Of a DNA stretch of 64,000 nt, positions 11,210-59,496 are shown piece after piece. The translations under genes were made by a program, and so were the position numbers. The notes beneath the pieces were generated by a model. That model made no database searches. It was not told the origin of the DNA and saw only the letters and a list, made by a program, of their open reading frames with translations. The DNA is taken from NCBI RefSeq assembly GCF_029960785.1, contig NZ_JASBQE010000057.1, positions 1 through 64,000 on the forward strand, written 5' to 3'. The stretch is from Polyangium sp. 15x6. Lineage in GTDB: Bacteria > Myxococcota_A > Polyangia > Polyangiales > Polyangiaceae. Positions within the stretch are counted from its first letter, which is position 1. Each line of letters begins with the position of its first letter.

Positions 11210-11315
11210 GGGAAACACCTCGCTGGTTCCGGCGCGACGGGATGTCGCGCGGCGGGTTCGGGAGGTGTCATGGCAAGAGCCGTGCCCCTCCGGAATCCAC
11301 GGAAATCCAGGTCGA

Positions 11316-11383
11316 TGCTCCAAAACGGAGCGGGGAGGTGCTCCAAAACGGAGCGCGGGGTGCTCCAAAACGGAGCGGGGAGG
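11316..11383 (+). repeat. Three 22-23-bp units TGCTCCAAAACGGAGCG
   Basis: The unit TGCTCCAAAACGGAGCG plus a G-rich tail starts at 11316, 11339 and 11361. Each unit has a short CTCC/GGAG inverted repeat. The run leads directly into the larger 43-bp array. Confidence 0.75.
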
Positions 11384-11745
11384 CCCCAAAGTGAGGTCCC
11401 GGCGGTGGGAGTGCATCATGGGGAGCCCCCAAAGCGAGGTCCCCGCGCTCGGAGTGCGTCATGGGGAGGCCCCAAAGCGAGGTCCCGGCGTTGGGAGTGC
11501 GTCATGGGGAGGCCCCGAAGCGAGGTCCCGGCGGTCGGAGTGCGTCATGGGGAGGCCCCAAAGCGAGGTCCCAGCGTTCGGAGTGCGTCATGGGGAGGCC
11601 CCGAAGCGAGGTCCCGGCGCTGGGAGTGCATCATGGGGAGGCCCCGAAGCGAGGTCCCGGCGCTGGGAGTGCATCATGGGGAGGCCCCAAAGCGAGGTCC
11701 CGGCGGCGGGAGTGCATCATGGGGAGGCCCCAAAGCGGAGTGACC
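11375..11745 (+). repeat. Minisatellite with exact 43-bp period, about 8.5 units
   Basis: The marker ATGGGGA occurs at 11418, 11461, 11504, 11547, 11590, 11633, 11676 and 11719, always 43 bp apart. Each unit contains GGGGAGGCCCC (a GGGG/CCCC inverted repeat), then AAGCGAGGTCCCGGCG and GGAGTGC. Units differ at a few positions (for example CAAAG/CGAAG, GCGTC/GCATC). As 43 is not a multiple of three, all frames stay open by chance; it is not a protein. It lies between the divergent 11209 and CHAT genes. Confidence 0.95.
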
Positions 11746-11875
11746 CTACGCAACCGGAATTTGGGGTGACACTTTGCCGTGGCGAAAGGTCGCGCTCACA
11801 CCGGGTGCGATTCGCGAAGGCTTGGCGCGTGCAGGGCGTTTCTCCCGAGCGCCGGTCGTCGGTGTACGATGGGCA

Positions 11876-12609
11876 ATGGTCCGGATGCCGGGGGAGTCCT
11901 TCGACGACAGCATCTACAGCATCGAGCGGCAGCGGCACGAGGGCTTCGTTCTGTTTTTGGCCGCCACCCCGGGGGGACCGTCCGGATCGCGCTCGACGAG
12001 GAGGCGCGCGCGATCCAGGAGGCGCTGGAGCGCAGCCGGTTCCGGGACCGCTTCGAGCTGGTGACGCGCTGGGCGACGCAGCCCGACGATCTGCTCCGCG
12101 AGCTCGTCAACCTCCAGCCAACGGTGGTCCACTTCAGCGGTCACGGCGGCGGGGACGCCGGCGGCGAGCACCGGACCGGTCCGCGCAGAGAGTTCGTCGC
12201 AGAGCCCGCGACGGCCGGCGGCCGGGAGCAGGGTCTGGTCTTCCATCACGGCGAGGGCCGCGCCCAGCTCGTCTCGAGCGACGCACTCGCGAAGGCGTTC
12301 AGCGCAGCGGGGGCCTCGGTGCGGCTGGTGCTCCTCAACGCCTGTCACAGCGAGGACCACGTCGAGGTGCTGCGAGCGCACGTCGACTGCGTCATCGGGA
12401 TGAGCGGTTCAATCCACGACGTCGCCGCGCGGCGATACGCGAGCAGCTTCTACACCGGCCTCGACGCGCGTCAGTCGGTCGCGGCGGCACACGCCCAGGG
12501 GTGCGCCGCGATCAGTCTGGCAGGGCTGCCCGACGCAGACCTCCCGCGCCTCTGCGTGCGCGCCGGCGTCTCGGCAGAGCGGCTCGTTCTCGCCGAGGGT
12601 TGTCCGTAG
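11876..12609 (+). pseudogene. CHAT-domain (caspase-like) protein, one-base frameshift
   Basis: The first 32 codons (start MVRMPGESFDDSIY) lead to VLFLAATP, the normal first strand of a stand-alone CHAT protein. At a run of six G (11971-11976) the frame breaks, and the sequence continues in the next frame as GGTVRIALDEEARAIQ through the His motif VVHFSGHG and the Cys motif LLNACHSE to the stop at 12609. One extra G would restore a complete protein of about 245 aa with both catalytic residues. CHAT proteases act in bacterial defence and signalling. The break may be a true mutation, a sequencing error, or a phase-variable or slippage site. Confidence 0.7.
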
Positions 12610-12640
12610 GCGCGTGCAGCGTCTCTTCTGGGAGGCGCTT

Positions 12641-12802
12641 CGCCGGGGCTCTGCCCCGGGCCCCGCGGGGGCTGTCCGCCCCTCGACCCGGACCAGCGCA
12701 AGCGCTGGACCTCAGGGGGAAGAACTGCGCGATGCGCAGTTCTTCCCACAGGTCGGTGGCAAGACCAGGGACGGCGTTGCCGGTCACGGCGGTCTTGGTT
12801 GG
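12641..12802 (-). repeat. Hairpin-rich dispersed element, left part of a split copy
   Basis: This is one half (12641-12747) plus about 55 bp of central spacer of the 318-bp element described at 22239. Hairpins: CCGGGGCTCTGCCCCGG, GGGGGCTGTCCGCCCC, CCAGCGCAAGCGCTGG, and GGGAAGAACTGCGC pairing with GCGCAGTTCTTCCC. Compared with 59157-59472 the match, in reverse orientation, runs to GGTCTTGGTTGG at 12802 and then stops abruptly. The other half is found at 13505-13634. Confidence 0.85.
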
Positions 12803-12979
12803 GTAGTGGCGGGATATCAGCAAGAGTGGCTGGATACCGTCGCGGGTCCTAGAGCCGGCTATCGGCTGGCAAGCGCTCGGAATGACCGAAAGTGCATGAT
12901 TCCTATGGCGATGGTGTGCTGAGCGGAGCCACACGAAGGGGCACGAGTCTTGCGGCCTGTCCTTTTCGAGGAGGTCTCT

Positions 12980-13363
12980 ATGGGCATCTCGATACAGGCG
13001 AATAAGATCTGCATGAGCGCTGTGGCAAGTCTCGTCATGGCGTTTGCGTCTGGATCAGCCAGCGCCGCCGATCTAACCGGCTGCTGGTCTGTCAACGGAG
13101 GTGGCACCTACTATATCGCCCAGCATGGCTCATCTTTGTTTTGGATGGGGATGAGCGATGATGGAGGGCGTCAATGGACGAACGTCTATTACGGCACCAT
13201 CTCTGGCAACGCGATCACGGGGAACTGGTCCGACGTCCCGCGTGGCCGCAACGCCCTCTGGGGGACGCTCTCGCTTCACATCGACAATGATTCTAGTTTC
13301 TCCACGACAAGCCAGACGGGAGGGTTTGGAGGACTATCATGGAGGAAGATCACCTGCCCGTAA
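12980..13363 (+). CDS. Small secreted protein of foreign base composition
   Basis: The 127-aa product starts MGISIQANKICMS. A GAGGAGG site 5 nt upstream decides the start at 12980. A Sec signal peptide ends at about ASA/AD (residue 29/30). The mature part, about 97 aa, has aromatic and Gly-rich strands: FWMGMSDDGG, NVYYGTISGNAITGNW, DVPRG and a Cys near each end. I recognise the GNxW.DVPRG segment as a recurring motif of uncharacterised bacterial secreted beta-sandwich-like domains. Codon use (TCT, TTA, ATA, CAA) is much less GC-biased than in all neighbours, and the gene sits inside a split dispersed repeat, so it has probably been acquired. Confidence 0.8.
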   Translation: MGISIQANKICMSAVASLVMAFASGSASAADLTGCWSVNGGGTYYIAQHGSSLFWMGMSDDGGRQWTNVYYGTISGNAITGNWSDVPRGRNALWGTLSLHIDNDSSFSTTSQTGGFGGLSWRKITCP

Positions 13364-13504
13364 GCCGTGGATGGCAATGCCTCACGCCGCGTCGGCGCCG
13401 AGGCGTATGTCGATGAGTGGGGGCACGGCCGAGCACTCGTAGACAAAGCCGCGTGGGGGTCGTGGTCAAGGTGCGCCGAGTGGTCATCCTCCACCCTCCC
13501 GCTC
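13364..13504. other. Tail of the inserted segment, possible gene scrap
   Basis: This is the remainder of the foreign-looking insert between the two halves of the split repeat. On the minus strand a peptide GFVYECSAVPPLIDIRLG ending in a stop at 13386 looks like a real C-terminal tail but is preceded by a stop codon within 30 residues, so it is at most a fragment. No terminator was recognised. Confidence 0.3.
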
Positions 13505-13634
13505 CCCTTGCCTCGACCTGCTCGATGAACTGCGCATCGCGCAGTTCATCGACCCCGGGTCCAGCGCTTGCGCTGGTCCGGGTCCAGGGGTGGACAACCC
13601 CTGGTGGGGCCTGGGGCAACGCCCCAGCGCAGCG
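13505..13634 (-). repeat. Hairpin-rich dispersed element, right part of the split copy
   Basis: Reverse-orientation first half of the 318-bp element: about 17 bp of spacer, then CGATGAACTGCGC/GCGCAGTTCATCG, then CCAGCGCTTGCGCTGG, CCAGGGGTGGACAACCCCTGG in two arms (CCAGGGG and CCCCTGG), and CTGGGGCAACGCCCCAG. Together with 12641-12802 it makes one complete copy interrupted by about 700 bp. Confidence 0.85.
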
Positions 13635-13706
13635 GCCCCAATGGGCGCCGCCGCAGCTCGTTTGCTCTCGGCTGGACGCGGTCTCGAGAGTCCGATACGG
13701 GGGGCC

Positions 13707-15002
13707 ATGCGAGCCATCCGTCCTCCTCGGATCGTGGCCTGGCGCAGCGGTCGACGCCCTGTTGGGCCCTCGCTGCTCGGGGTGGCGCTCGCGCTGACGA
13801 CGGGCTTCGCCCTCGGTGACGAGCTGAAGAGCACAGGCCCCGCGGTCGAGGACGCGGCGGCGCGGCCCGTGCTCGTCCTGCTCGTCGCGAAAGGCGTGCG
13901 CTCGCCGCTCGAGGAGCGGGCTGTGACGCTCGTCGCTGCGCATGTCCGCTCCGCCGGCGTGACGTTGAAGCGGGTCGAGCGCCCCGTGAGCTCCCCCGAT
14001 ACGGGCGACCGTATCGCCGACGCGCGCGCGGTCGCGGATGACGAGGGCGCGAAGGGGGTGCTCTGGGTGGGGATCGGGAAAGGGGACGAGCTCGTCCTCC
14101 ATCTCCTCGAAAAGGAAGGCGGGCGCGTGTTTCGCCGCGGCGTCCCCGCGCCCGCCGGCCAGACCTCCGCGGCGCTCGAGGCGCTCGCGAACATCGCCGG
14201 CTCGGCCGCGGCGGAGCTGGTCGTCGAAGGGCACGTCGTCACGATGACGTCCCTGGAGGTCGCCGACCCCGCGTCCTCTCCCGCGCCCGCCGCCGAGGCA
14301 GCCCCGGTCTCCGCGCCGCCTCCGCCTCCGCCACCCCCTCCGCCACCCCCTGCCACGACGGCGCCTGCGCCTCGGGTGATGCCTCCGCCGGAGGCTCCCG
14401 CGCGGCCGAGCTTTCGGCGGCTGCTCCTCTCCGCGGGATATACGGGCGGCACCTTCGCGCGCGAGGCCTCCTGGCAGAGCGCCCTCGCGCTCTCCGCGTG
14501 GTGGGCGCCCGCGCCGAACGCGCGCGTCGGCCTCGGCTACGAGATGATCTTCGAAGAGTACGTCAAGGGCTCGAGCTCCGCGCTCGACGTCGACCTGTCC
14601 CGTCACCCCATCGTCTTCGGCGGCGGATATCGCTTCCTCTTCGGCGGCCGCTGGGACGTCGATCTGGGCGCGCGTAGCACGGTCGACATCGTCGTTCGCG
14701 ACCCGCACCCCGTTTCTTCTTCGGCTCCTCCTGCTCCCACGCCGCCGCCGCCGACCCCGCTGCGGCACGCGGTCGACGCGCTCGTGAGCATCGCCCCCAC
14801 GGTGGGCCTCGGCTTCCGGATCGTCGACCGGCTCCGCGTCGGCGCCTGGGCCGGCGTGGACGTGCCGCTGAACCGGCTCTCCACGACGAATCAGCCCCCG
14901 GTCGACCTCCAGACCGACCCGGCGAGGTTCCTCGGCGGCCTCGAGCTCCAGGTGGATCTGATCGAGCCCACGATCCCGCGTCCTGCCCGGGCGGGACGAT
15001 GA
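13707..15002 (+). CDS. Probable outer-membrane beta-barrel protein with N-terminal sensor-like domain
   Basis: The 431-aa product (start MRAIRPPRIVAW) has an N-terminal hydrophobic segment ending near residue 36, an alpha/beta domain to about 190 (PVLVLLVAKGVRSPLEERAV ... GVLWVGIGKGDELVL), a proline run (APPPPPPP) near 205-225, and a C-terminal 200 residues of alternating beta-strand pattern ending in an aromatic/hydrophobic strand, typical of a small outer-membrane barrel. The ECF sigma and TPR genes follow on the same strand (73 bp, then ATGA overlap), so the three probably form one envelope-related operon. Family unnamed. Confidence 0.7.
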   Translation: MRAIRPPRIVAWRSGRRPVGPSLLGVALALTTGFALGDELKSTGPAVEDAAARPVLVLLVAKGVRSPLEERAVTLVAAHVRSAGVTLKRVERPVSSPDTGDRIADARAVADDEGAKGVLWVGIGKGDELVLHLLEKEGGRVFRRGVPAPAGQTSAALEALANIAGSAAAELVVEGHVVTMTSLEVADPASSPAPAAEAAPVSAPPPPPPPPPPPPATTAPAPRVMPPPEAPARPSFRRLLLSAGYTGGTFAREASWQSALALSAWWAPAPNARVGLGYEMIFEEYVKGSSSALDVDLSRHPIVFGGGYRFLFGGRWDVDLGARSTVDIVVRDPHPVSSSAPPAPTPPPPTPLRHAVDALVSIAPTVGLGFRIVDRLRVGAWAGVDVPLNRLSTTNQPPVDLQTDPARFLGGLELQVDLIEPTIPRPARAGR

Positions 15003-15075
15003 CGAAAAAAAATGACCCGCTCCCGGGGGCGCGCGGAACCATGCGCCCGTGCCTGCGGGTGGAAAGTCGAGCTTG

Positions 15076-15696
15076 ATGAGCGCGAGCGTCCTCGGGCGGT
15101 CACAGGCCGGCCGAGACGAGGCCGCGGTCGTGGCCTCGCCCCTGGATCTCGATCGGGCTCGCCGCGCCGGCGCGGGCGAGCCCGCGGCCCAGGCGTGGCT
15201 CGTGATGGAGCTGCTCCCGAGCGTCCGGCGGATCGCGCGGGCCTTCCTGCAGAGCCCCGCCGACGCGGACGACGTCGCCCAGCTCGCGCTGCTCGCGATC
15301 CTGAGGAGCGCCGCGACCTACCGCGGCGAGGCCAGCCTCGCGACCTGGGGGCGGCGCATCGCCGTGAGGACCGCGCTCAAGTACGTCCGCGCGGGGCGGC
15401 AGCGCGAGGCCTTGATCGCCGGTGACGAGTCGGCCGCCGACGACGTGCCCGCGTCGTCGCCCGGTCGCGACGCCGAGGCCCTGCCTCGCCATGTGCGCGA
15501 GTACCTGGACGAGCTGCCCGAGGCGCAGCGCGAAGTGATCATCCTCCACGTCGCGCTGGAGCACACGGTGGACGAGGTCGCCGAGATGACGGAGGCCAGC
15601 CGCGATACCGTGAAGAGCCGGCTGCGCCTCGGGATCGAGGCGCTGCGAAAGCAGGTCCGACAGGATATCGCCGTCGGCCGCAGGAGGTCCGCATGA
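15076..15696 (+). CDS. ECF-type RNA polymerase sigma factor
   Basis: The 206-aa protein has sigma region 2 (DADDVAQLALLAILRSAATY, then WGRRIAVRTAL) at about 60-110 and region 4 (LPEAQREVIILHVALEHTVD, EVAEMTEAS, DTVKSRL) at about 145-195, and lacks regions 1 and 3, as in ECF sigma factors. It directs RNA polymerase to a specific promoter set. A start at 15076 is preferred to 15049, which adds a non-homologous leader. Its stop overlaps the ATG of the next gene (ATGA), and that gene has the topology of a membrane-anchored anti-sigma partner, so the pair probably works as a surface-stress switch. Confidence 0.85.
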   Translation: MSASVLGRSQAGRDEAAVVASPLDLDRARRAGAGEPAAQAWLVMELLPSVRRIARAFLQSPADADDVAQLALLAILRSAATYRGEASLATWGRRIAVRTALKYVRAGRQREALIAGDESAADDVPASSPGRDAEALPRHVREYLDELPEAQREVIILHVALEHTVDEVAEMTEASRDTVKSRLRLGIEALRKQVRQDIAVGRRRSA

Positions 15697-16673
15697 AGCC
15701 GATGAAGCGTGCCTCGGACGAGGAGCGCTGGATCTCCCTCGTGGCGGCCCGGGGCCGTGGGCAGCCGCTCACGCCCGAGGAGGTCGAGTTCGTCCGTCAT
15801 CAGGAAGAGGCCGATCCGGAGCTCGCCGACGAAGCGGCGTTGTGGGCCGAGATCGGCCGGCTGGGGTCGCCGCGCGGGGAAGGCGCCGAGGTCGACGACG
15901 GCGTGATGGCCTCACGGGTCCTCGCGAAGATGCAGGAGGAGCGTGCCCCGTCGTCCGTGGAGCTCTTTCCGGAGCCGCGCCCGCGATCCCTCACGCGCCC
16001 CATGACGAGGCGCGGGGTCGCGGGGCTCGCCGCCGCGGTCGCCTTCGCGGCGGCGCTGGGCGCCTTCGCGGCCACGTGGGTGAACACGCGCTTCGGGGGG
16101 CCGGAGCCGCGCCCGATCGAGGGCACCGACGCCGGACCGCCTCCGTCTGCTCACACGACCGCGCCGCCGAAGCCGGTCGAGGTCGTGGCGCCGATGCCTT
16201 CCTCGGTCGAGGCGCCCGTCGCGAGCGTGGCCGAGGCGCCCGTCGCGGCGGCCCCGCCCCGGGTGGCGGATCAGGACGGGAAGCGCGGCAAGGTGAGCGC
16301 AGGATCGAGCGCCGACGAGCTCCTGGGCGAAGCGCAGGCCGCGCTCGCCGCGGGCCGGACCCGGGACGCGATCACGACGTATCAAACGCTGCTCGCGCGT
16401 TACCCCGAGAGCTCCGAGGCGCGGGCCGCGCTGGTATCGCTCGGGCGCCTCTCACTCGCGGGCGGGAGCGCAACCTCCGCGCTCGGCTATTTCGATCGTT
16501 ACCTGGCGAGCGGGGGCGGCGCGCTCGTGATCGAGGCCCACTACGGTCGCATCCAGGCGCTCCAGCAGCTCGGGCGCGCCGGCGAGGCGCAGGCGGCGAT
16601 CGACGATTTCCTCACTCGTCACGGCGACAGCGTGTACGCGACCCGGCTGCGCGAGCAGCGCAAAGGGCATTAG
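15693..16673 (+). CDS. Single-span membrane protein with TPR tail, probable anti-sigma partner
   Basis: The 326-aa protein has a cytoplasmic helical N-terminus (1-105), a single transmembrane helix at about 108-130, a Pro/Ala linker, and C-terminal TPR-like repeats (ELLGEAQAALAAGRTRDAIT, then YPESSEARAALVSLGRL and RYLASGGG...) similar to tol-pal YbgF-type tails. The ATGA overlap with the sigma gene and this topology point to an anti-sigma role in which the N-terminus holds the sigma factor and the periplasmic TPR part senses the envelope. No classical ZAS Cys motif is visible, so this role is inferred from context. Confidence 0.75.
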   Translation: MKPMKRASDEERWISLVAARGRGQPLTPEEVEFVRHQEEADPELADEAALWAEIGRLGSPRGEGAEVDDGVMASRVLAKMQEERAPSSVELFPEPRPRSLTRPMTRRGVAGLAAAVAFAAALGAFAATWVNTRFGGPEPRPIEGTDAGPPPSAHTTAPPKPVEVVAPMPSSVEAPVASVAEAPVAAAPPRVADQDGKRGKVSAGSSADELLGEAQAALAAGRTRDAITTYQTLLARYPESSEARAALVSLGRLSLAGGSATSALGYFDRYLASGGGALVIEAHYGRIQALQQLGRAGEAQAAIDDFLTRHGDSVYATRLREQRKGH

Positions 16674-16712
16674 AGCTCTCGACGAGATTCGAGCGCCCTC
16701 GGTTCTTTTTTT
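16664..16712 (+). terminator. Possible rho-independent terminator after the sigma/TPR operon
   Basis: AGGGC (16664-16668) can pair with GCCCT (16694-16698), enclosing a second imperfect stem GCTCTCGA/TTCGAGC, and is followed by a run of seven T at about 16706-16712. The stem overlaps the stop codon region. The stem is imperfect, so confidence is limited. Confidence 0.4.
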
Positions 16713-16813
16713 GACCCGCTCTCGCGCCCCCCGGGCACGAGGGCGGCACAGAGCGGCGGGGGCATGTCCGAACACGCCTGTCGAGCGTCACGCTCCAAAG
16801 GACCCGAGGAAGC

Positions 16814-18808
16814 ATGGTCATGTTCAACAAGTTCACGATGCAGGGGATTTTCGCATTGGCGCTGGGTTCGTCGCTCGCCGCGTGCGGCGCCGAGGAGACG
16901 GGTGTAGGGGACACCGAGAACGTCGGAGAGAATGCCCAAAAGCTCCAGTCCTTCGCCGCGCCGTTCCGGGACGGGTCGACGATGCGCGGCAGCTCCGCGG
17001 ATTGGGATCCCCAACACGGCAAGGCTTCTTGCGCCCCCGGCGAGGTGGTGAGCGGCATCAGCGTGTCGCCCACGGATCACCAAGGCCGGAGCGCGCTCTG
17101 CAAGGAGGGCGACGCCGCGAAATTCACGGGGAACGTGGTGGAGACGATGGTGCTCGCCGACGCGGACGAGCGCCGGGCGTCGCGCCTCGGCGACTGGGCG
17201 CCCGGGTTCTACAAGCTCGAGTGCGGCTACGGCGAGTACGTGAGCGGCGTCAGCGAGAACGCCGCGCAGTACCAGGGCAACAACAAGTTCCACGGGCTCC
17301 AGTGCGCGCAGGGGGTGGGGTTCACCGAGGACACGGCCTGCACCGTGCGGACCTTCGACACCCGCGACGATCGCGGAGACTGGACGCGCTTGGAATGGGA
17401 CTACGGCGGGTACAAGGGCGAGTGCGCGATCAATGAGCACGTGGCCGGCGTGAGCATTTCGCCCTCGAGTGGTGGCCCGCATTCGATCCTGTGCTGCCAG
17501 AGCTCCGGGCCCGCGCCCACGATGTCGCCCGGCGCGACGTTCTGGGGAACGGGCCCGCTCATGACGTTCACCGCGCAGACGGCGACGGAGTGTTACACCC
17601 CCTGCCTCGAAGACGCGTCGTGCACGGGCGGTACCTTCAATCCGGACAAGCAGGCCTGCTGGCTCCGCACGGGGAGCGCGACCGTCGGCGACGGGCTCGT
17701 GTCGGACAACGCGTTCACGGTGTCGTCGAGCCTGCGCGACGCGTATTACCTGTCGCTGATGCACGCGGGTCGGACCTTCTGGGGGGCGGGGGGGACGGCG
17801 AGCCCGGGGCTCCGCACCTTCTCCACGCCGAGCGCGGCGGTGTGTTATCAGGCCTGTCTCGTGGACCCGTCGTGCGCGGGCGGTACCTTCAATCCGGACA
17901 AGCAGGCCTGCTGGCTCCGCGCGGGGCAGGCGGACATCGGCGACGGGCTCGTGTCGGACTTCGCGTTCGTGATGCCCTCCGCCCAGCGCGACGAGGCGCT
18001 GCGCTTCTTGGGTGAAAAGTTCGCGCCGCGGCTGCGCTTCGACGGGGCGGCCAACGGTTACCCCATGTCCGCGCAGGCGTTCTACGACAAGGCCATCACC
18101 CAGAACGCGGGCATCAGCGTGAACGACGACGCCGCCTCGCTGTCCACGGGCGCCATCCCGACGTATTACCAGACCATCACTTGCGGCGCGCAGGTGCGGC
18201 TCATGTACTGGTTCTTCTACGGCTACCAGGAGGACTGCGACGGGAGCTCCGGCTCCCACCCCGGCGACTGGGAGCGGGTCATGGTGACCCTGAGCGAGGA
18301 TCGGAGCCGGATCGCCGCCGTCACCTACTGGATGCACGGCAAGTCCTACACGCGGCTCCCGGCGCGCGGCTCGGTCGCCATCGAAGATGTCACCCACCCC
18401 GTCATCTACATAGGCAAAGACTCGCACGCGGCCTTCTACAACCAGGGCGGGAGCAGCAACACCTGCCTGCCCTGGGAGGAGTTCCGCAACAACAGCACCG
18501 GCGTTCACCTCGATACATGGAACAAGCTCGTCAGTCTCGACGGGAACGAGGAGCCCTGGATGCTCCACGACCGGCAGGGCGGCTTCTCCTGGGGCAACGG
18601 CGGCGTGGGCACCCACCCGACCCAGGCCGGACCGAGCTGCAACATGGCCGCGGCCACCTGGGACGACGCTATCCCCACCTGGTGGCACGCCGACTGCGAG
18701 TACGGGGATACGGAGGCATTGGGCACCTGCTGGACGTCGGGTTGGGACTCGTACACCAAAGCCTGGACCATCGGCATCACGGACCGAGGCCTCATCGTGG
18801 GGAACTGA
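16814..18808 (+). CDS. Lipoprotein with two PAN/apple-like modules and a Vps62-like domain
   Basis: The 664-aa lipoprotein has a lipobox LAAC (Cys24). Residues about 50-230 contain repeated GEVVSGISVSP/GEYVSGVSEN-type segments with paired Cys. Residues about 240-385 hold two near-identical modules, each with FWG...CY..CL.D.SC.GGTFNPDKQACWLR, a PAN/apple-like layout. Residues about 395-660 resemble the Vps62 family: HPGDWERVMVTL, YIGKDSHAAFYNQGG and a final WHADCEYGD segment. The domain's biochemical role is unknown even in fungi. The protein is probably displayed on the cell surface. Confidence 0.8.
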   Translation: MVMFNKFTMQGIFALALGSSLAACGAEETGVGDTENVGENAQKLQSFAAPFRDGSTMRGSSADWDPQHGKASCAPGEVVSGISVSPTDHQGRSALCKEGDAAKFTGNVVETMVLADADERRASRLGDWAPGFYKLECGYGEYVSGVSENAAQYQGNNKFHGLQCAQGVGFTEDTACTVRTFDTRDDRGDWTRLEWDYGGYKGECAINEHVAGVSISPSSGGPHSILCCQSSGPAPTMSPGATFWGTGPLMTFTAQTATECYTPCLEDASCTGGTFNPDKQACWLRTGSATVGDGLVSDNAFTVSSSLRDAYYLSLMHAGRTFWGAGGTASPGLRTFSTPSAAVCYQACLVDPSCAGGTFNPDKQACWLRAGQADIGDGLVSDFAFVMPSAQRDEALRFLGEKFAPRLRFDGAANGYPMSAQAFYDKAITQNAGISVNDDAASLSTGAIPTYYQTITCGAQVRLMYWFFYGYQEDCDGSSGSHPGDWERVMVTLSEDRSRIAAVTYWMHGKSYTRLPARGSVAIEDVTHPVIYIGKDSHAAFYNQGGSSNTCLPWEEFRNNSTGVHLDTWNKLVSLDGNEEPWMLHDRQGGFSWGNGGVGTHPTQAGPSCNMAAATWDDAIPTWWHADCEYGDTEALGTCWTSGWDSYTKAWTIGITDRGLIVGN

Positions 18809-18851
18809 GCGACCACGCGCCCACGGTTCGTATGGGCGAAATCGGCGGGCG

Positions 18852-22210: not shown

Positions 22211-22238
22211 AACTGCGGAGAGCCTCGTTGACGTGAGG

Positions 22239-22556
22239 CGCCGCGCTGGGGCGTTGCCCCAGGCCCCACCAGGGGTTGTCCACCCCTGGACCCGGACCAG
22301 CGCAAGCGCTGGACCCGGGGTCGATGAACTGCGCGATGCGCAGTTCATCGAACAGGCCCGAGGCAAGACCAAGGGCGACCCTGCCAGCCAAGACAGCCGC
22401 GCTGCCCTTTCGACGGGCAAGGCTCTCTCACGGGCCCGTTGGAAGAACTGCGCATCGCGCAGTTCTTCCACCTTCGGTCCAGGCCGTGCCTGGTCCGGGT
22501 CGAGGGGCGGATAGCCCCCGCGGGGTCCGGGGCAGCGCCCCGGCGCGGCGTCCCCC
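22239..22556 (+). repeat. Dispersed 318-bp element of eight hairpins, full copy
   Basis: First half (22239-22350): CTGGGGCGTTGCCCCAG; CCAGGGG/CCCCTGG; CCAGCGCAAGCGCTGG; CGATGAACTGCGC/GCGCAGTTCATCG. Spacer of about 90 bp. Second, inverted half (22441-22556): GGAAGAACTGCGC/GCGCAGTTCTTCC; CCAGGCCGTGCCTGG; GGGGC/GCCCC; CCGGGGCAGCGCCCCGG. Full copies with the same order are at 27924-28243 and 59157-59472. The stems are conserved as pairs while their sequences differ. It lies between two same-strand genes. Confidence 0.95.
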
Positions 22557-22641
22557 AAAGGCGCGCGCTGGATTTTCGGGGAGAGCCCATTGCGCCGTGA
22601 AGGCCGGACACAACATTCGGAAATGGGAAAGGGGGTGCCGT

Positions 22642-26274: not shown

Positions 26275-26955
26275 TCAATCGGGCGGGCGCTCGCACTCGA
26301 AGATGTGCCCCCAGCGTGGATCGAGCGACAGCCAGACCGGAGACGAGCTGGGGGTGAGCGCTCCGCTGCCGAGCGGGAGCGCGCCCTCCCAGACACGCTC
26401 CGTGATGCATCCGTCGAGGCCGAGGTCCGCGGGGGTCGCGCGGAAGGTCGATCCATCGGGGCACACGAGCGTGAGGGGCATGCCCGACGTGAACGAAATC
26501 GTCGCGCCGCTCGGCCCCTCGAGGACGTGTACCCGGGGAGTATCCTGCGCCAACCCCGTCTCCGGGCCCGTGTCGCGATAGCGGAAGCAGGTCTTGTTCG
26601 CGACACGGACCTCGATGTCGAGCGCCCAGGGGCTCGCTCTCGCCAACTCGGGCCGAAAGAGCACCTCCGCGTTCGAGGCCGCGCAGGTCTTTCCGTCACG
26701 CGCGAGCATGCCCTCGATCGGGAGAGGGCCGAGGCAGGCGCGGATCTCGCGTTTCATCGGCTGCCAGCAGTTGTCCTCGTCGCGGACCCATTCGCAATCG
26801 AGCGGCTTCGAGGCGTCGTTCGGCGCCGGAGGCGCGGGCGTTTCGTCGGAGAGCGGGGGCGGCGCGCCCCGCGGAACGGCGTCTCTCGTGCAGCCGAGGA
26901 AGGACGCGGTGAGCCAGAGGATGGGGGCGAGCAGGGCTCTCGAGCGCGGATGCAT
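26275..26955 (-). CDS. Lipoprotein, hypothetical
   Basis: The 226-aa product has a signal peptide with lipobox FLGC (near residue 22), a Pro/Ala-rich linker and a mature domain with six Cys (CEWVRDEDNCW, CLGP, CAAS, CFRY, LVCPDG, GCITE, ECERP). The pattern suggests several disulfides in a beta-rich fold. No named family is recognised. Upstream, 46 bp from its start, begins the second 43-bp minisatellite. Confidence 0.7.
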   Translation of the reverse strand: MHPRSRALLAPILWLTASFLGCTRDAVPRGAPPPLSDETPAPPAPNDASKPLDCEWVRDEDNCWQPMKREIRACLGPLPIEGMLARDGKTCAASNAEVLFRPELARASPWALDIEVRVANKTCFRYRDTGPETGLAQDTPRVHVLEGPSGATISFTSGMPLTLVCPDGSTFRATPADLGLDGCITERVWEGALPLGSGALTPSSSPVWLSLDPRWGHIFECERPPD

Positions 26956-27000
26956 GGTAGGTCGTGGCCGAGGAGAGCCCTAGCAAAGCTACCGCGAGGA

Positions 27001-27387
27001 GGGAACGTTCCTGGTTGCCGCCAAGCCAGGCTAGGAGCCCGGGGGGAACGTTCCGGGGAGCTTCCGAGCCTAGCTACAAGCCCGGGGGGAACGTTCCGGG
27101 GAGCTTCCGAGCCTAGCTACAAGCCCGGAGGGAACGTTCCGGGGAGCTTCCGAGCTTGGGGAGGAGACCGGGGGGAACGTTCCGGGGAGCTTCCGAGCCA
27201 GGCTACAAGCCCGGGGGGAACGTTCCAGGGAGCTTCCGAGCTTGGGGAGGAGACCGGGGGGAACGTTCCAGGGAGCTTCCGAGCTTGGGGAGGAGACCGG
27301 AGGGAACGTTCCAAGCTGCCTCCTAGCCTCGGGAGAAGGTCGAGGGGAACGTTTCGAGCTCGATTCCAGCGAGGCGAGGAAGGTCCA
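27001..27387 (+). repeat. Minisatellite with exact 43-bp period around GGAACGTTCC palindromes
   Basis: GGGAACGTT starts at 27001, 27044, 27087, 27130, 27173, 27216, 27259, 27302 and 27345, so nine units with a strict 43-bp step. The first ten bases contain the perfect palindrome GGAACGTTCC in all but the last unit (GGAACGTTTC). The rest of the unit (GGGGAGCTTCCGAGC, then either CTAGCTACAAGCCC or TTGGGGAGGAGACC) exists in two alternating types and decays towards both ends. It lies between a divergent gene pair (26955 minus, 27459 plus). Confidence 0.97.
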
Positions 27388-27458: not shown

Positions 27459-27923
27459 GTGTCCCTGGAAACGATGCGTGTTCCACCGAGCGAGCGATGG
27501 GAGGCCTTTGGCACGCACCTGCACAGGATCGAGCACCCCGACCTGTACTTCGTCCGCATTCGAGGAGACGTGCTGGGCGACGACATGCGCACGCAGATCG
27601 CCGCCCTCCGAGCACTCGCCAAGCGCTCCGGGGGCAGCGTCTTCTGGATGGCAGACGTCACGGCGATGGGCACCGTCACGACAGATGCGCGGCGCGCGAC
27701 CGCAGCGCACGAATTCGCAGCCGTACGCGCAAGCCTCGGTGGCTCGGCCATCATCGGCGCCTCGTTCACGGCGCGCGTCGTGTCAACCCTCATCATGCGC
27801 GCCGTACGCGCCCTGGAGCCCCACGGAATCCGCCCCGTGGCATTCGTCGAAACAGAAGCCGAAGCGCGCGCCTTTCTAGACCCGTTCCGAAGGCCCGGCG
27901 CCGACGTCGCGATCACCCCGTAG
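27459..27923 (+). CDS. STAS-like (SpoIIAA-type) small protein
   Basis: The 154-aa soluble protein has alternating strands and helices: YFVRIRGDVLGDD, then VFWMADVTAMGTVT, SAIIGASFTARVV and a C-terminal VAFVETEAEARAFL. This is typical of the SpoIIAA/STAS-like proteins common in myxobacteria. The GTG at 27459 or the ATG at 27474 could be the start; neither has a strong ribosome-binding site. Its stop codon is immediately followed by a full 318-bp dispersed element. The partner protein is unknown. Confidence 0.7.
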   Translation: MSLETMRVPPSERWEAFGTHLHRIEHPDLYFVRIRGDVLGDDMRTQIAALRALAKRSGGSVFWMADVTAMGTVTTDARRATAAHEFAAVRASLGGSAIIGASFTARVVSTLIMRAVRALEPHGIRPVAFVETEAEARAFLDPFRRPGADVAITP

Positions 27924-28243
27924 GCCGCCGCGCTGGGGCGTCGCCCCAGGCCCCACCAGGGGCTATCCGCCCCTGGACCCGGACCAGCGCAAGCGCTGGA
28001 CCCGGGGTCGATGAACTGCGCGATGCGCAGTTCATCGAACAGGCCGAGGAACGACCCCTGCCAATCGAGACAGCCGCGCTGCCATTTCGACCGGCAACGC
28101 TGTCCCTGGTCTTCCAACGGGCCCGTTGGAAGAACTGCGCGGAGCGCAGTTCTTCCACCAAAGGTCCAGGGCTTGCCCTGGTCCGGGTCGAGGGGCGGAC
28201 AGCCCCCGCGGGGTCCGGGGCGGCGCCCCGGCGCGGCGTCCCC
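27924..28243 (+). repeat. Dispersed hairpin element, full copy between convergent genes
   Basis: Same architecture as 22239-22556. First half: CTGGGGCGTCGCCCCAG, CCAGGGG/CCCCTGG, CCAGCGCAAGCGCTGG, CGATGAACTGCGC/GCGCAGTTCATCG. Second half: GGAAGAACTGCGC/GCGCAGTTCTTCC, CCAGGGCTTGCCCTGG, GGGGC/GCCCC, CCGGGGCGGCGCCCCGG. It begins at the base after the TAG of the STAS-like gene and ends 15 bp from the stop of the convergent lipase gene, so it fills the whole intergenic gap. Confidence 0.95.
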
Positions 28244-28257
28244 AAGCGAGACGCGCG

Positions 28258-32835: not shown

Positions 32836-33453
32836 ATGACCACGAAGGTTTACCCGGCCGACGCGACCGGCATTCTGTTCATCGACCCGTACAACGACTT
32901 CCTCAGCGAAGGAGGGAAGCTCTGGCCGCGTCTGAAGGAGACGATCGAGGCGAACAACGTCCTCGAACACCTGCGCCAGATCGTCGCGGCCGCGCGGAGC
33001 GCCGGCATTCGCATGTTCGTCGTGCCCCACCACAAGGCCGAGCCCACGGACTTCGCGACCTGGAAGCATCCGACCCCGTACCAGCTCGCGTCCGCCAAGC
33101 TGCAGGTCTTCCAGAAGGGCTCGTGGGGAGGGGAGTGGCACCCGGATTTCGCGCCGAAGGAAGGTGACGTCGTCATCAAGGAGCACTGGGCGCAAAACGG
33201 ATTCGCGAACACCGACCTCGATCAGCAGCTCAAGCAGCACGGCGTTTCGCGGGTCATCCTCATCGGCATGGTGGCAAATACGTGCGTCGAAGCCACGGCG
33301 CGATTCGCGATGGAGCTCGGCTATCACGTGACGCTGGTGACAGACGCGACGGGCGCCTTCGGGCCCGAGATGATGCACGCCGCCCACGTGCTCAATGCGC
33401 CGACGTTCGCACACGCGATCGTCACCACGTCGGAGCTCTTGGCCTCGCTTTAG
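32836..33453 (+). CDS. Isochorismatase-like cysteine hydrolase
   Basis: The 205-aa protein has the family triad: Asp17 in FIDPYNDFL, the Lys of VVIKEHW near residue 115 and Cys150 in MVANTCVEATAR. The cis-peptide region GMVANTC is typical. Such enzymes hydrolyse isochorismate, nicotinamide or other amides; the substrate is not deducible. It is 13 bp downstream of the alpha/beta hydrolase gene, probably co-transcribed. Its stop codon overlaps by 4 bp the stop of the large convergent gene. Confidence 0.88.
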   Translation: MTTKVYPADATGILFIDPYNDFLSEGGKLWPRLKETIEANNVLEHLRQIVAAARSAGIRMFVVPHHKAEPTDFATWKHPTPYQLASAKLQVFQKGSWGGEWHPDFAPKEGDVVIKEHWAQNGFANTDLDQQLKQHGVSRVILIGMVANTCVEATARFAMELGYHVTLVTDATGAFGPEMMHAAHVLNAPTFAHAIVTTSELLASL

Positions 33454-36095
33454 TACGCCTTCTCGGACAGCTCCGACTCCGGATATCCCACGCCGGCCCG
33501 GTGATACAGGGCCGGCCCGGCATTCTCCAGCAGGCACTCCCGCGTCCAGCCGACCTCGAGGAGGAAGCTCCCCCAGAGCTTTCGGCTCTTCTCGTCCGTG
33601 AGCAGATCCGACCGCTGGAAATGCCACCACTCCATCCCGATCGGCTGCCCCGGCGCGGGCACGGTGATCGCGTCGCCGGGCATGATCAGCACGCTCGCCG
33701 ACACGCCCGCCGGATCCGCCGGCGTCGCATACCCGATCTCGAAGATCGGGTTCAGCGTCACCGTGAAGCTACTGGTCTTCGGCTTGGCCGAAGGCACCGT
33801 CGCGCCGGTGTTTTGCTTGACGTTCTGATTCGCGGGCGCCTCTTGCTCCAGCGCTTGCGGCCGCTCCTCGATGTATTTCGCCCACGCCTCGCCCGATTGC
33901 ACCGGCGGCTGCGACTCGTCGGAGACGATCCCGTAAAACGGCTTGTCCGCGTATTCGCGTAGCTTCGCCGCGACTTTCTTCGCGTCCTCGATCTTCGCCG
34001 CCGACCAGGAGAGCGTCACCGTGAGCTGCGGCGTGTTCGTCTTGACGCTCTTGGCGATCTCCTTTTTCGCGTCCTTCAGCGTCCCGGCCCATCGGCGCAT
34101 GAAGTCGGCGTCCAGCGCGGGCACCGTCGACGCGAGCTTCGTCGATTTCCCGCGCGAGACCCTCACGACGTCGTCGTCCGTCTTGCTCGTCTTCGCCTTG
34201 TCGAGCGCGTCGGCGAGCGTGACGAGCTCGGCTGCCTTCACCGTCTTCGTGGTTTGTCCCCAGCCCGATTTGAACGAGCTGATGCGGCCGAGGTTCAAAA
34301 GCTCGCCGACGGCCGTGATGTCGAGGTACGCGCCATGATCGCCCGCCTCTGCCGCCTTCGCGGGCTCGTGCTCGGCGAAGAACTCGGACGCGGTCATCGT
34401 GGCGCCCTTGATCCCGCCTTCCGGGTGCCAGGCGTCGTACATCCACCGCTCGATCGAGGCCCGGTAATACTTCGCGAAGAAGCCCGCGGGATTCGCCTGG
34501 ATCTCCGCGAGGAGTTTTTCGAGCGCTGGGAGGAGCATTGCCGCCGCGATGGGCGTCTTCGATTGCTCGTCCCGCAGCGCCACGAGCCGCTCCACGATGG
34601 GCGCCGCGTGCGCCGCCGCGTCCGCCGCGCCGGGGAGCGATTGCTTGGCCGAGCCGTGGAGCCGCCATTTCACACGGCCATCCGCGACCTCACGCGTGTA
34701 CGCCACCGGCCAGCCCGAGACCGTGTCCACGAAGCCGCTCGCGATGCCGAGATCCATGGCGAGGCCCGTCTTGTGAATGGACCGCGCGCTCCGCCCATAT
34801 CCGGCCTTGCCGATGTCGACCTGCGCGCTGCGGAACGTGTGGTTCACGCAGATCCCGTGCTCGAACCCGAGCGCCTTCACGAGCTCGCTCCAGCCGTGCA
34901 GCGATTGCGCCGCCTCGGGCCGCATCCAGTTCAGCCAGCCGCGCGGATCGATCATCGAGACCAGGATCGCCCCCGGCTTGCGCAGGCCCTGCTCGAGCCA
35001 CGTCTTCAGCGCCTTGCCCGTCGCCGCCGTCACCACGCCGTCGGCCGCGTCCGGTTTGTCCGTCGGCGCCGCGATCTCGCTGCCGTCGAGGTAGGCCCAT
35101 GCATTCGCGATGTTCGTCGCGGTCTTCACGTCGGCCTGCTCGGCCTTGATCTTCCCGTCGAGCGTGATCTTTTGCTTCTTCTGATCGTCGGTCAGCCCCT
35201 TCTGCTTCTTCAGCGCCTTGAGCTCCGCCTGCATCGCCGAGAGCGCGCCGCGATCGACCTTCGGCGCGAAGTTCGCCCCGTAATCGACGTACGCCGCGTG
35301 CGGGCCCGAAGCGCCGCCGCCATTCACCTGGAATGCCCGCGACCGCGCGTCCTCTTGATACCGATAGACCGCGTTCATCGTGCGGACGTCGAAGATCCCG
35401 TCGTTCACGCCGCCGGATTTGTCGGCGTCCGTGCCCGCGTCCGGCAGGTAAGGGAAGTTCGACGTGCCCACCATGTACCGGAGCGCGCCGAGGTGCGCTT
35501 GCAATCGCTGCACCTGCTTTTTCACCGGCTCGCACGCCGCGAAGGGCATGTCCCGGAAGAGCACCCAGCCTTCATAGAGATCCGCGCCGGCCGGCAGGAG
35601 GCCCTTCGATTCCTCGGGCACCTCGAGCGTCGGCGCATCCGCGCGCACCGTGAGCGCCCTCGGCTCTCCGAAGGCCTTCGATCCCGCGTTGATCTCCGCT
35701 TCGATCCGCGACGCGAGATCGAGGCTCGGGTGCTGGATCAAATACACGTCGTAGGATTGCCCCTGCTGGAGCTTGTACGCGTCGGGGACCTGATCGAAGC
35801 ACGTGGGCGAGGAATGATCGATGGGCGGGCCGAGATATCCGGTCGCGTCCGTCATACCGAGCACGTACGGCGGCACGGGCCCCGCGGGCGTCTCCTCGCT
35901 CGTCCACAGCGCGGCGATCTTGCTGCCAATCGTGGGATCCGCGGGTTTCGGTGGGGTTTTTCGGAACAGGACGAAGAGGTTCGGCAGCACGTGGCCGGCG
36001 GTGCACGCGACCTTCGTGATCTTCAGCGTCGGGACGCAATACGTGGTCACGGCGCTCGACGCGCCGCCGCCCGGGGTTCCGCCGTCGCCGCTCAT
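33450..36095 (-). CDS. 881-aa protein with M15-type peptidase motifs, probable secreted effector
   Basis: The large protein has no signal peptide. The N-terminal 220 residues are unrecognised. The metal-binding motifs of an M15 D,D-/L,D-carboxypeptidase are present but far apart: SIHKTGLAMDLGI (His and Asp ligands, about residue 440) and GMEWWHFQ (catalytic Glu and third His, about residue 820), so about 380 residues are inserted between them, containing helical Lys-rich segments. It is the last of three overlapping minus-strand genes with a LysM/PG-binding adaptor and a small linker protein. This arrangement resembles type VI or eCIS effector modules. Target would be peptidoglycan; this is inference. 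Confidence 0.75.
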   Translation of the reverse strand: MSGDGGTPGGGASSAVTTYCVPTLKITKVACTAGHVLPNLFVLFRKTPPKPADPTIGSKIAALWTSEETPAGPVPPYVLGMTDATGYLGPPIDHSSPTCFDQVPDAYKLQQGQSYDVYLIQHPSLDLASRIEAEINAGSKAFGEPRALTVRADAPTLEVPEESKGLLPAGADLYEGWVLFRDMPFAACEPVKKQVQRLQAHLGALRYMVGTSNFPYLPDAGTDADKSGGVNDGIFDVRTMNAVYRYQEDARSRAFQVNGGGASGPHAAYVDYGANFAPKVDRGALSAMQAELKALKKQKGLTDDQKKQKITLDGKIKAEQADVKTATNIANAWAYLDGSEIAAPTDKPDAADGVVTAATGKALKTWLEQGLRKPGAILVSMIDPRGWLNWMRPEAAQSLHGWSELVKALGFEHGICVNHTFRSAQVDIGKAGYGRSARSIHKTGLAMDLGIASGFVDTVSGWPVAYTREVADGRVKWRLHGSAKQSLPGAADAAAHAAPIVERLVALRDEQSKTPIAAAMLLPALEKLLAEIQANPAGFFAKYYRASIERWMYDAWHPEGGIKGATMTASEFFAEHEPAKAAEAGDHGAYLDITAVGELLNLGRISSFKSGWGQTTKTVKAAELVTLADALDKAKTSKTDDDVVRVSRGKSTKLASTVPALDADFMRRWAGTLKDAKKEIAKSVKTNTPQLTVTLSWSAAKIEDAKKVAAKLREYADKPFYGIVSDESQPPVQSGEAWAKYIEERPQALEQEAPANQNVKQNTGATVPSAKPKTSSFTVTLNPIFEIGYATPADPAGVSASVLIMPGDAITVPAPGQPIGMEWWHFQRSDLLTDEKSRKLWGSFLLEVGWTRECLLENAGPALYHRAGVGYPESELSEKAY

Positions 36096-59140: not shown

Positions 59141-59156
59141 CCTGTCTCATCGGGGA

Positions 59157-59472
59157 GCCGCCGCGCTGGGGCGTTGCCCCAGGCCCCAGCAGGGGCTATC
59201 CGCCCCTGCACCCGGACCAGCGCAAGCGCTGGACCCGGGGTCGATGAACTGCGCAACGCGCAGTTCATCGAACAGGCCGAGTCAAGACCGGCGACGACCC
59301 TGCCAACCAAGACCGCTTTGACCGGCGACGCCGTCCCTGGTCTTGCCACCGGCCTGTGGGAAAAACTGCGCGGAGCGCAGTTTTTCCCCCCGAGTCCAGG
59401 GCTTGCCCTGGTCCGGGTCGAGGGGCGGATAGCCCCCGCGGGGTCCGGGGCAGCGCCCCGGCGCGGCGGCCC
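59157..59472 (+). repeat. Dispersed hairpin element, full copy between convergent genes
   Basis: First half: CTGGGGCGTTGCCCCAG, GCAGGGG/CCCCTGC, CCAGCGCAAGCGCTGG, CGATGAACTGCGC/GCGCAGTTCATCG (apical bases AAC). Second half: GGGAAAAACTGCGC/GCGCAGTTTTTCCC, CCAGGGCTTGCCCTGG, GGGGC/GCCCC, CCGGGGCAGCGCCCCGG. In the b hairpin GCAGGGG/CCCCTGC replaces CCAGGGG/CCCCTGG: a paired G-C to C-G change. It lies between stop codons at 59140 (plus) and 59497 (minus). Confidence 0.95.
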
Positions 59473-59496
59473 AAAGAAGAGACCCATGCTCAGGGC

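Follow-up and report, generated by a model that had tools for sequence, protein, structure and literature searches.

How does a small gene of foreign appearance come to lie inside a repeat? An intergenic hairpin element, present in many copies in Polyangium genomes, stands in Polyangium sp. 15x6 with its two halves 704 bp apart and such a gene between them. The original prediction proposed that the element is either a preferred insertion site or a carrier of cargo between its inverted halves. The window, i.e. the whole stretch of 64,000 nucleotides that was analysed, is contig C228 of a draft genome of 13.4 Mb in 275 contigs (G000). It was compared with other Polyangium genomes, among them P. 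fumosum (G001), another Polyangium (G002), Polyangium sp. y55x31 (G003) and Polyangium sp. 6x1 (G004). The features of the locus are collected in Table 1.

Table 1. Features of the split element and of its neighbourhood (positions in the window)
Feature	Position	Strand	Basis and remarks
43-bp tandem array	11291..11806	.	related array in P. fumosum
Left neighbour, CHAT-domain gene	11851..12609	+	PF12770, E 3e-11; ORF opens at 11779, start by eye; stop just before the L half
L half with about 55 bp of spacer	12626..12802	+	94-97% identity to best other copies
Insert, 704 bp, in place of 16 bp of spacer	12803..13506	.	composition; alignment
GAGGAGG, likely RBS of the inserted gene	12968..12974	+	by eye; 5 nt before the ATG at 12980
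Inserted gene, 127-aa protein, signal peptide by eye, family also on cyanobacterial plasmids	12980..13363	+	ORF; tblastn; alignment of three
R half with the remaining spacer	13507..13640	+	best other copies 98%; alignment
Right neighbour gene	13707..15002	+	ORF opens at 13590, start by eye

The element itself is an inverted doublet of about 318 bp. Exact matches to its hairpin AACTGCGCNNNGCGCAGTT number 488 in G000 and 217 in G002, the reversed control giving none in either, and elements with this hairpin were also found in P. fumosum DSM 14668, Polyangium sp. y55x31 and Polyangium sp. 6x1 (at least 77 loci, among the matches listed). Intact copies of the window include 22237-22557, 27923-28246 and 59154-59480; for the last of these, RNA folding predicts a single long, branched hairpin at -270 kcal/mol (z -20, with 0 of 100 shuffled sequences as good). 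As a candidate terminal inverted repeat of the MITE type, the sequence CTGAGCAYGGGTCTC marks the outer ends in part of the copies, and TGAGCATGGGTCTC is found at 12 places in 1.10 Mb when one mismatch is allowed. A candidate target-site duplication is seen at a single site: an element of a relative (L189) has CTAG on either side while the corresponding empty site of G000, on contig C200, has one CTAG. Halves without a partner match the element at 68-98%. A thin search of the open-access literature on myxobacterial and Polyangium repeats, which is no proof that the family is unpublished, gave no description of it among the entries listed.

The position of intact copies relative to genes was analysed with neighbours called by a simple in-house codon-usage script. 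Two called neighbours are present for 56 of 59 intact pairs, the other three being located at contig edges; 35 of these neighbour pairs are convergent, 14 codirectional and 7 divergent. Intergenic gaps of at least 200 bp free of elements are convergent in 62 cases out of 350, a far lower proportion than the 35 out of 56 for elements (Fisher p 2e-11). In the convergent cases the median distance from stop codon to element is 12 bp on each side. These results fit a role at gene ends, in termination or 3'-end protection, or simply a site where the element is tolerated. The split copy is preceded by a stop codon on its left and faced by a gene start on its right.

The two halves, originally predicted at 12641-12802 and 13505-13634, were recovered by homology with the bounds of Table 1, in the order and orientation normal for a single element. 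The inner part of the L half (12721-12802) reaches 98.8% identity to other copies. The spacer was aligned in 15 rows, corresponding to 14 distinct copies as one was entered twice: the L side of the split copy reaches GGTTGG, its R side begins with CTTG, and 16 spacer bases present in most rows are absent. The spacer varies at this very place, with 17 bases in two rows and one copy without 12 of the 16. The absence of a target duplication at the junctions, noted at first reading, held when they were examined by eye, and the loss of 16 bp stands in its place. An inverted repeat pairing both ends of the insert was looked for and none was found, and the insert has no second DNA copy among the loci compared. 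The L half reaches 55 bp into the spacer, as opposed to 8 of 9 unpaired L halves which end at the arm end (element position q129 or before); the spacer side is kept in 8 of 16 unpaired R halves, so that the intact inner end of the R half is no special sign.

The low GC content attributed to the insert was confirmed. With 60.2% GC it lies at the 0.63% level among 6,226 windows of 704 bp, and the gene (57.0% GC, 69% GC3) ranks at the 0.18% level when compared with 11,440 windows of 384 bp, whose median is 68.75%. The gene is AT-rich for its genome, in the lowest 0.2% of such windows, and a composition typical of the genome, which would have spoken against a foreign origin, was not observed. Its own ribosome-binding site and signal peptide, the latter ending in ..SASA, were both recognised by eye as initially described.

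Relatives of the gene are rare. A tblastn search of 72,556 plasmid records gave two matches at E<=0.01, both on plasmids of Nostocales (Calothrix sp. PCC 7716, E 3e-16; Nostoc sp. C057, E 2e-13), each with 46.8% identity across 61-69% of the query; alignment of the three proteins leaves 28 invariant columns. The gene is present in one copy in its own genome, which is the sole match among 183 genomes of the order, and is absent from the 5 other genomes of the genus and from the 376 other genomes of the phylum (all at E<=0.001). At E<=1, 115 of 377 genomes of the phylum give a match, the best besides its own having E 0.00135 and 29% identity, which was taken as noise. No relative was found in phages at E<=0.1, in viral contigs, or in a scan of chromosomes outside the phylum; as this last scan was sensitive to close relatives only, the plasmid matches do not tell which organism was the donor. 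The product has no Pfam match at E<=1, and matches to NCBIfam (E 0.08), to PDB (E 0.12 or more) and, for region 12301-14000, to Rfam (E 0.96) were taken as chance. A small secreted beta-rich domain would be our guess. The foreign composition and distant origin of the gene are supported by these results.

The simplest reading of the spacer alignment is the split of one element. We favour, with moderate confidence, the view that a single element broke near its hairpin tip and that foreign DNA with one gene for a small secreted protein was captured there. The element of about 318 bp would originally have stood after the CHAT gene; its strongly folding hairpin would have been broken near the tip and the break repaired with captured DNA, a foreign piece of about 0.7 kb thereby entering the spacer and replacing 16 bp. 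Since terminal repeats and a target duplication are missing and a small deletion is present, the joining would have been an illegitimate end joining, with no transposase. A hairpin tip that is prone to breakage and was repaired illegitimately would account at once for the small deletion, for the missing end repeats and for an insert lying in the spacer. In E. coli, chromosomal rearrangements have been described as arising from interrupted palindromes (PMC3315005), and a profile search places Ku over the cut-off in the own genome; a break followed by Ku repair is the likely, putative mechanism. Where the gene came from, that the hairpin broke, how it was repaired and in which order all this happened are matters of inference. 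To account for the split copy, it suffices that one acquired gene landed by chance in an intergenic repeat as common as this.

The main alternative is that the L and R halves belonged to two elements, which deletions or translocations brought together on either side of a foreign gene. The flanks indicate that the site is, on the basis of these alignments, a rearranged one. The right flank is conserved in G002 (13652-18844, 88% identity, the homology starting just after the R half) and in P. fumosum (13670-18811, 80% identity), and in both genomes it stands with neither element nor gene and with a different left flank. In neither genome do the flanks of the split copy adjoin: a distance of 2.35 Mb separates the CHAT gene from the right flank in G002, and in P. 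fumosum the left neighbour is different again. Homology of G002 to both flanks stops at the outer edges of the composite, so a rearrangement is also involved. In P. fumosum the right flank is preceded, at a distance of 85 bp, by an array resembling 11327-11739, hence the stretch made of the CHAT gene, the L half, the gene and the R half looks inserted relative to this species. The CHAT gene is also shorter than in G002, whose homologous region holds an extra 2.9 kb with a tandem repeat of 378-bp period.

The halves themselves give a divided answer. For the seven copies closest to the split one in the R half (95-98%), similarity in the L half is only 72-80%, hence the halves could derive from two elements. 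On the other hand the L-R concordance of the split copy (rank 12 of 56) is not unusual, and an origin from two elements requires that two truncations occurred independently and that their ends in the spacer are only 16 bp from each other. The loci of the former G002 neighbours, found in G000 on contigs C264 and C225, also lack any half element at the junction; beyond that of C225, an intact element occurs at about 0.6 kb. The same placement led us to reject a reciprocal recombination between two elements. On balance we regard an origin from two elements as rather unlikely.

The proof originally proposed for an insertion, namely a relative whose element is uninterrupted at this site, was not found. 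In DNA searches of the 5 other genomes of the genus (best 40 candidates per genome), the right flank was matched only in P. fumosum and G002, among the matches listed, and both lack the element there. With no intact orthologue, insertion into a pre-existing element rests on the continuity of the spacer. Elsewhere, a 2.3-kb segment of the P. fumosum locus L141 (3186-5445) is absent at 33441-33457 of the window, with a 17-bp overlap of the flank matches which could be a target duplication.

The search for other separated pairs of halves, suggested along with the prediction, was carried out and gave further long-gap pairs, mostly with tandem arrays, plus one other gene. Over the initial 1.10 Mb surveyed in the own genome, the halves are separated by -7 to 82 bp in 48 of 51 collinear L-R pairs, and gaps between 82 and 478 bp do not occur; with 9 L and 16 R halves unpaired, simple arithmetic gives about 0.07 L-R pairs within 1 kb by chance. 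The final survey covered 1.89 Mb of G000 (13 contigs or parts) and yielded 168 halves, of which 42 are unpaired and the others form 63 collinear pairs; the gap is -7 to 82 bp in 59 of them and 347 (C133), 478 (C23), 599 (C7) and 704 bp (the split copy) in the remaining ones. C7 and C23 had been chosen as already looking split or solo, and C228 is the finding itself; without these three contigs, which hold 13 pairs, inserts above 300 bp concern 1 of 50 pairs of the own genome. The 77 loci of relatives (581,660 bases, chosen by their R hairpin) contain 71 pairs: 65 with gaps of at most 99 bp, one of 120 bp, and five of 390, 391, 454, 560 and 1536 bp. A further pair of G004 (L013), outside the census counts, has a 451-bp gap with a 43-bp array. 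All long inserts with readable ends lie in the spacer or at its edge. A control for split arms gave four candidates, two of them at the edge between arm and spacer and two with a weak piece. That the element is a preferred insertion site, the first branch of the original proposal, is in line with the readable inserts; since independent events are few and inserts within an arm are harder to detect, the preference is suggestive only.

The content of the other long copies is mostly repetitive. The insert of C23 contains a 43-bp array, and in that of C133 a CACGTGT motif recurs about every 43 bp by eye. C7 was rejected as a clean split: an element terminus comes right after its L half and the R piece measures 47 bp, so that it was read as a truncated element beside an array. 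Four P. fumosum loci (L125, L136, L146 and L198) carry homologous inserts with 22- or 64-bp arrays, themselves homologous (77-96% over aligned parts) to inserts of G002 at 1.306 and 2.855 Mb (L049 and L050), next to which the R piece measures just about 52 bp. To judge by these sequences, an enlarged array-bearing form, with a middle of 390-560 bp, has multiplied and is a repeat family in P. fumosum and G002. Non-coding tandem arrays are common in the own genome: under a lenient period rule, 24 of 31 arrays have periods near multiples of 21.5 bp (often 42-43 bp) with units that differ, another such array being present at 26955-27384 of the window. A link of 43-bp arrays to elements was not retained, as in the 1.89 Mb a half is found at less than 1 kb from 6 of 24 arrays and from 18% of the non-coding bases, which is no clear enrichment.

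One long copy contains a gene. In Polyangium sp. 6x1 (L175, 474-4171), a single long open frame of 493 codons, with a loosely defined start, lies between L and R with no array. In G000, G002 and G003 this gene has the same flanks and no element directly beside it, although in G002 and G003 element copies occur beyond one flank; in 6x1 a second copy, 80% identical, stands next to it outside the element. The arrangement can be read either as a gene copy which entered the spacer or as halves which came to flank a native gene, and under the latter reading it favours the joining of two elements at our locus as well.

If the capture that we favour for this locus were general, the spacer would be a recurrent point of capture: tip breaks would be healed with the DNA at hand (arrays of 43-bp period, copies of native genes, foreign genes), some enlarged forms would spread again, and the repeat would act as a natural gene trap at gene ends. 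We hold this extension to be quite unlikely as a whole.

That the gene travels between the inverted halves of a non-autonomous composite moved in trans appears very unlikely. The repeated array-bearing long form, at four loci of P. fumosum and two of G002, fits the idea that the element can carry cargo, and elements vary by species: at six comparable sites, two have a shared element, two show no more than a single half in G000, and two none. This part of the original proposal does not extend to the gene, which is found in one copy only and in none of the 5 other genomes of the genus. The transposase search (Y1 only) gave a single Y1_Tnp match for the genome, the 3.2-kb locus around it being free of elements, and mobilisation by a RAYT was rejected on this ground. 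Finally, a misjoin of draft contigs inside a high-copy repeat is barely credible: contigs do end inside elements (C7, C77 at both ends, C198, C231 and C228) in this 275-contig draft, yet both insert junctions link unique sequence to spacer, and a misjoin could alter the outer flanks but hardly split an element.

Among known systems, the closest likeness is to REPINs, doublets of REP sequences with a 16-mer core described in Pseudomonas fluorescens (PMC3116915). As presented there, REPINs share with the Polyangium element a high copy number, an intergenic location, the inverted-doublet structure (here 59 short-gap pairs out of 63, and 488 exact hairpins against 0), a less conserved spacer, a hairpin fold and the occurrence of single units. 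They differ from it in their 16-mer core, the Polyangium element being about 318 bp long with several hairpins per half, and in their cognate RAYT, the one Y1 match here having no element beside it. TIMEs (PMC4133298) and mobile insertion cassettes (PMC5444012) are described as transposase-less elements with inverted repeats able to hold passenger DNA, as does the split copy; in Polyangium, terminal repeats and a target duplication are at most candidate features and a movement of the gene would be hypothetical. The same passenger at several loci, as expected of such cassettes, is seen for the array-bearing long form and not for the gene. REP sequences are moreover reported as insertion targets, often between convergent genes, ISPsy8 always breaking the REP at the same point (PMC1525189). 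The likeness is a palindromic repeat typical of convergent gene ends and interrupted by other DNA. In the cases reported there an IS inserts, whereas here the gene is not an IS gene (its product has no Pfam match at E<=1), end repeats and a visible duplication are lacking and 16 bp are lost. If the interior of the repeat regularly accepts DNA without harm to its neighbours, it would offer these very large genomes a natural landing pad for new genes, an idea that can be tested with natural strains. The element family is a giant REPIN-like hairpin, often packed between convergent stop codons.
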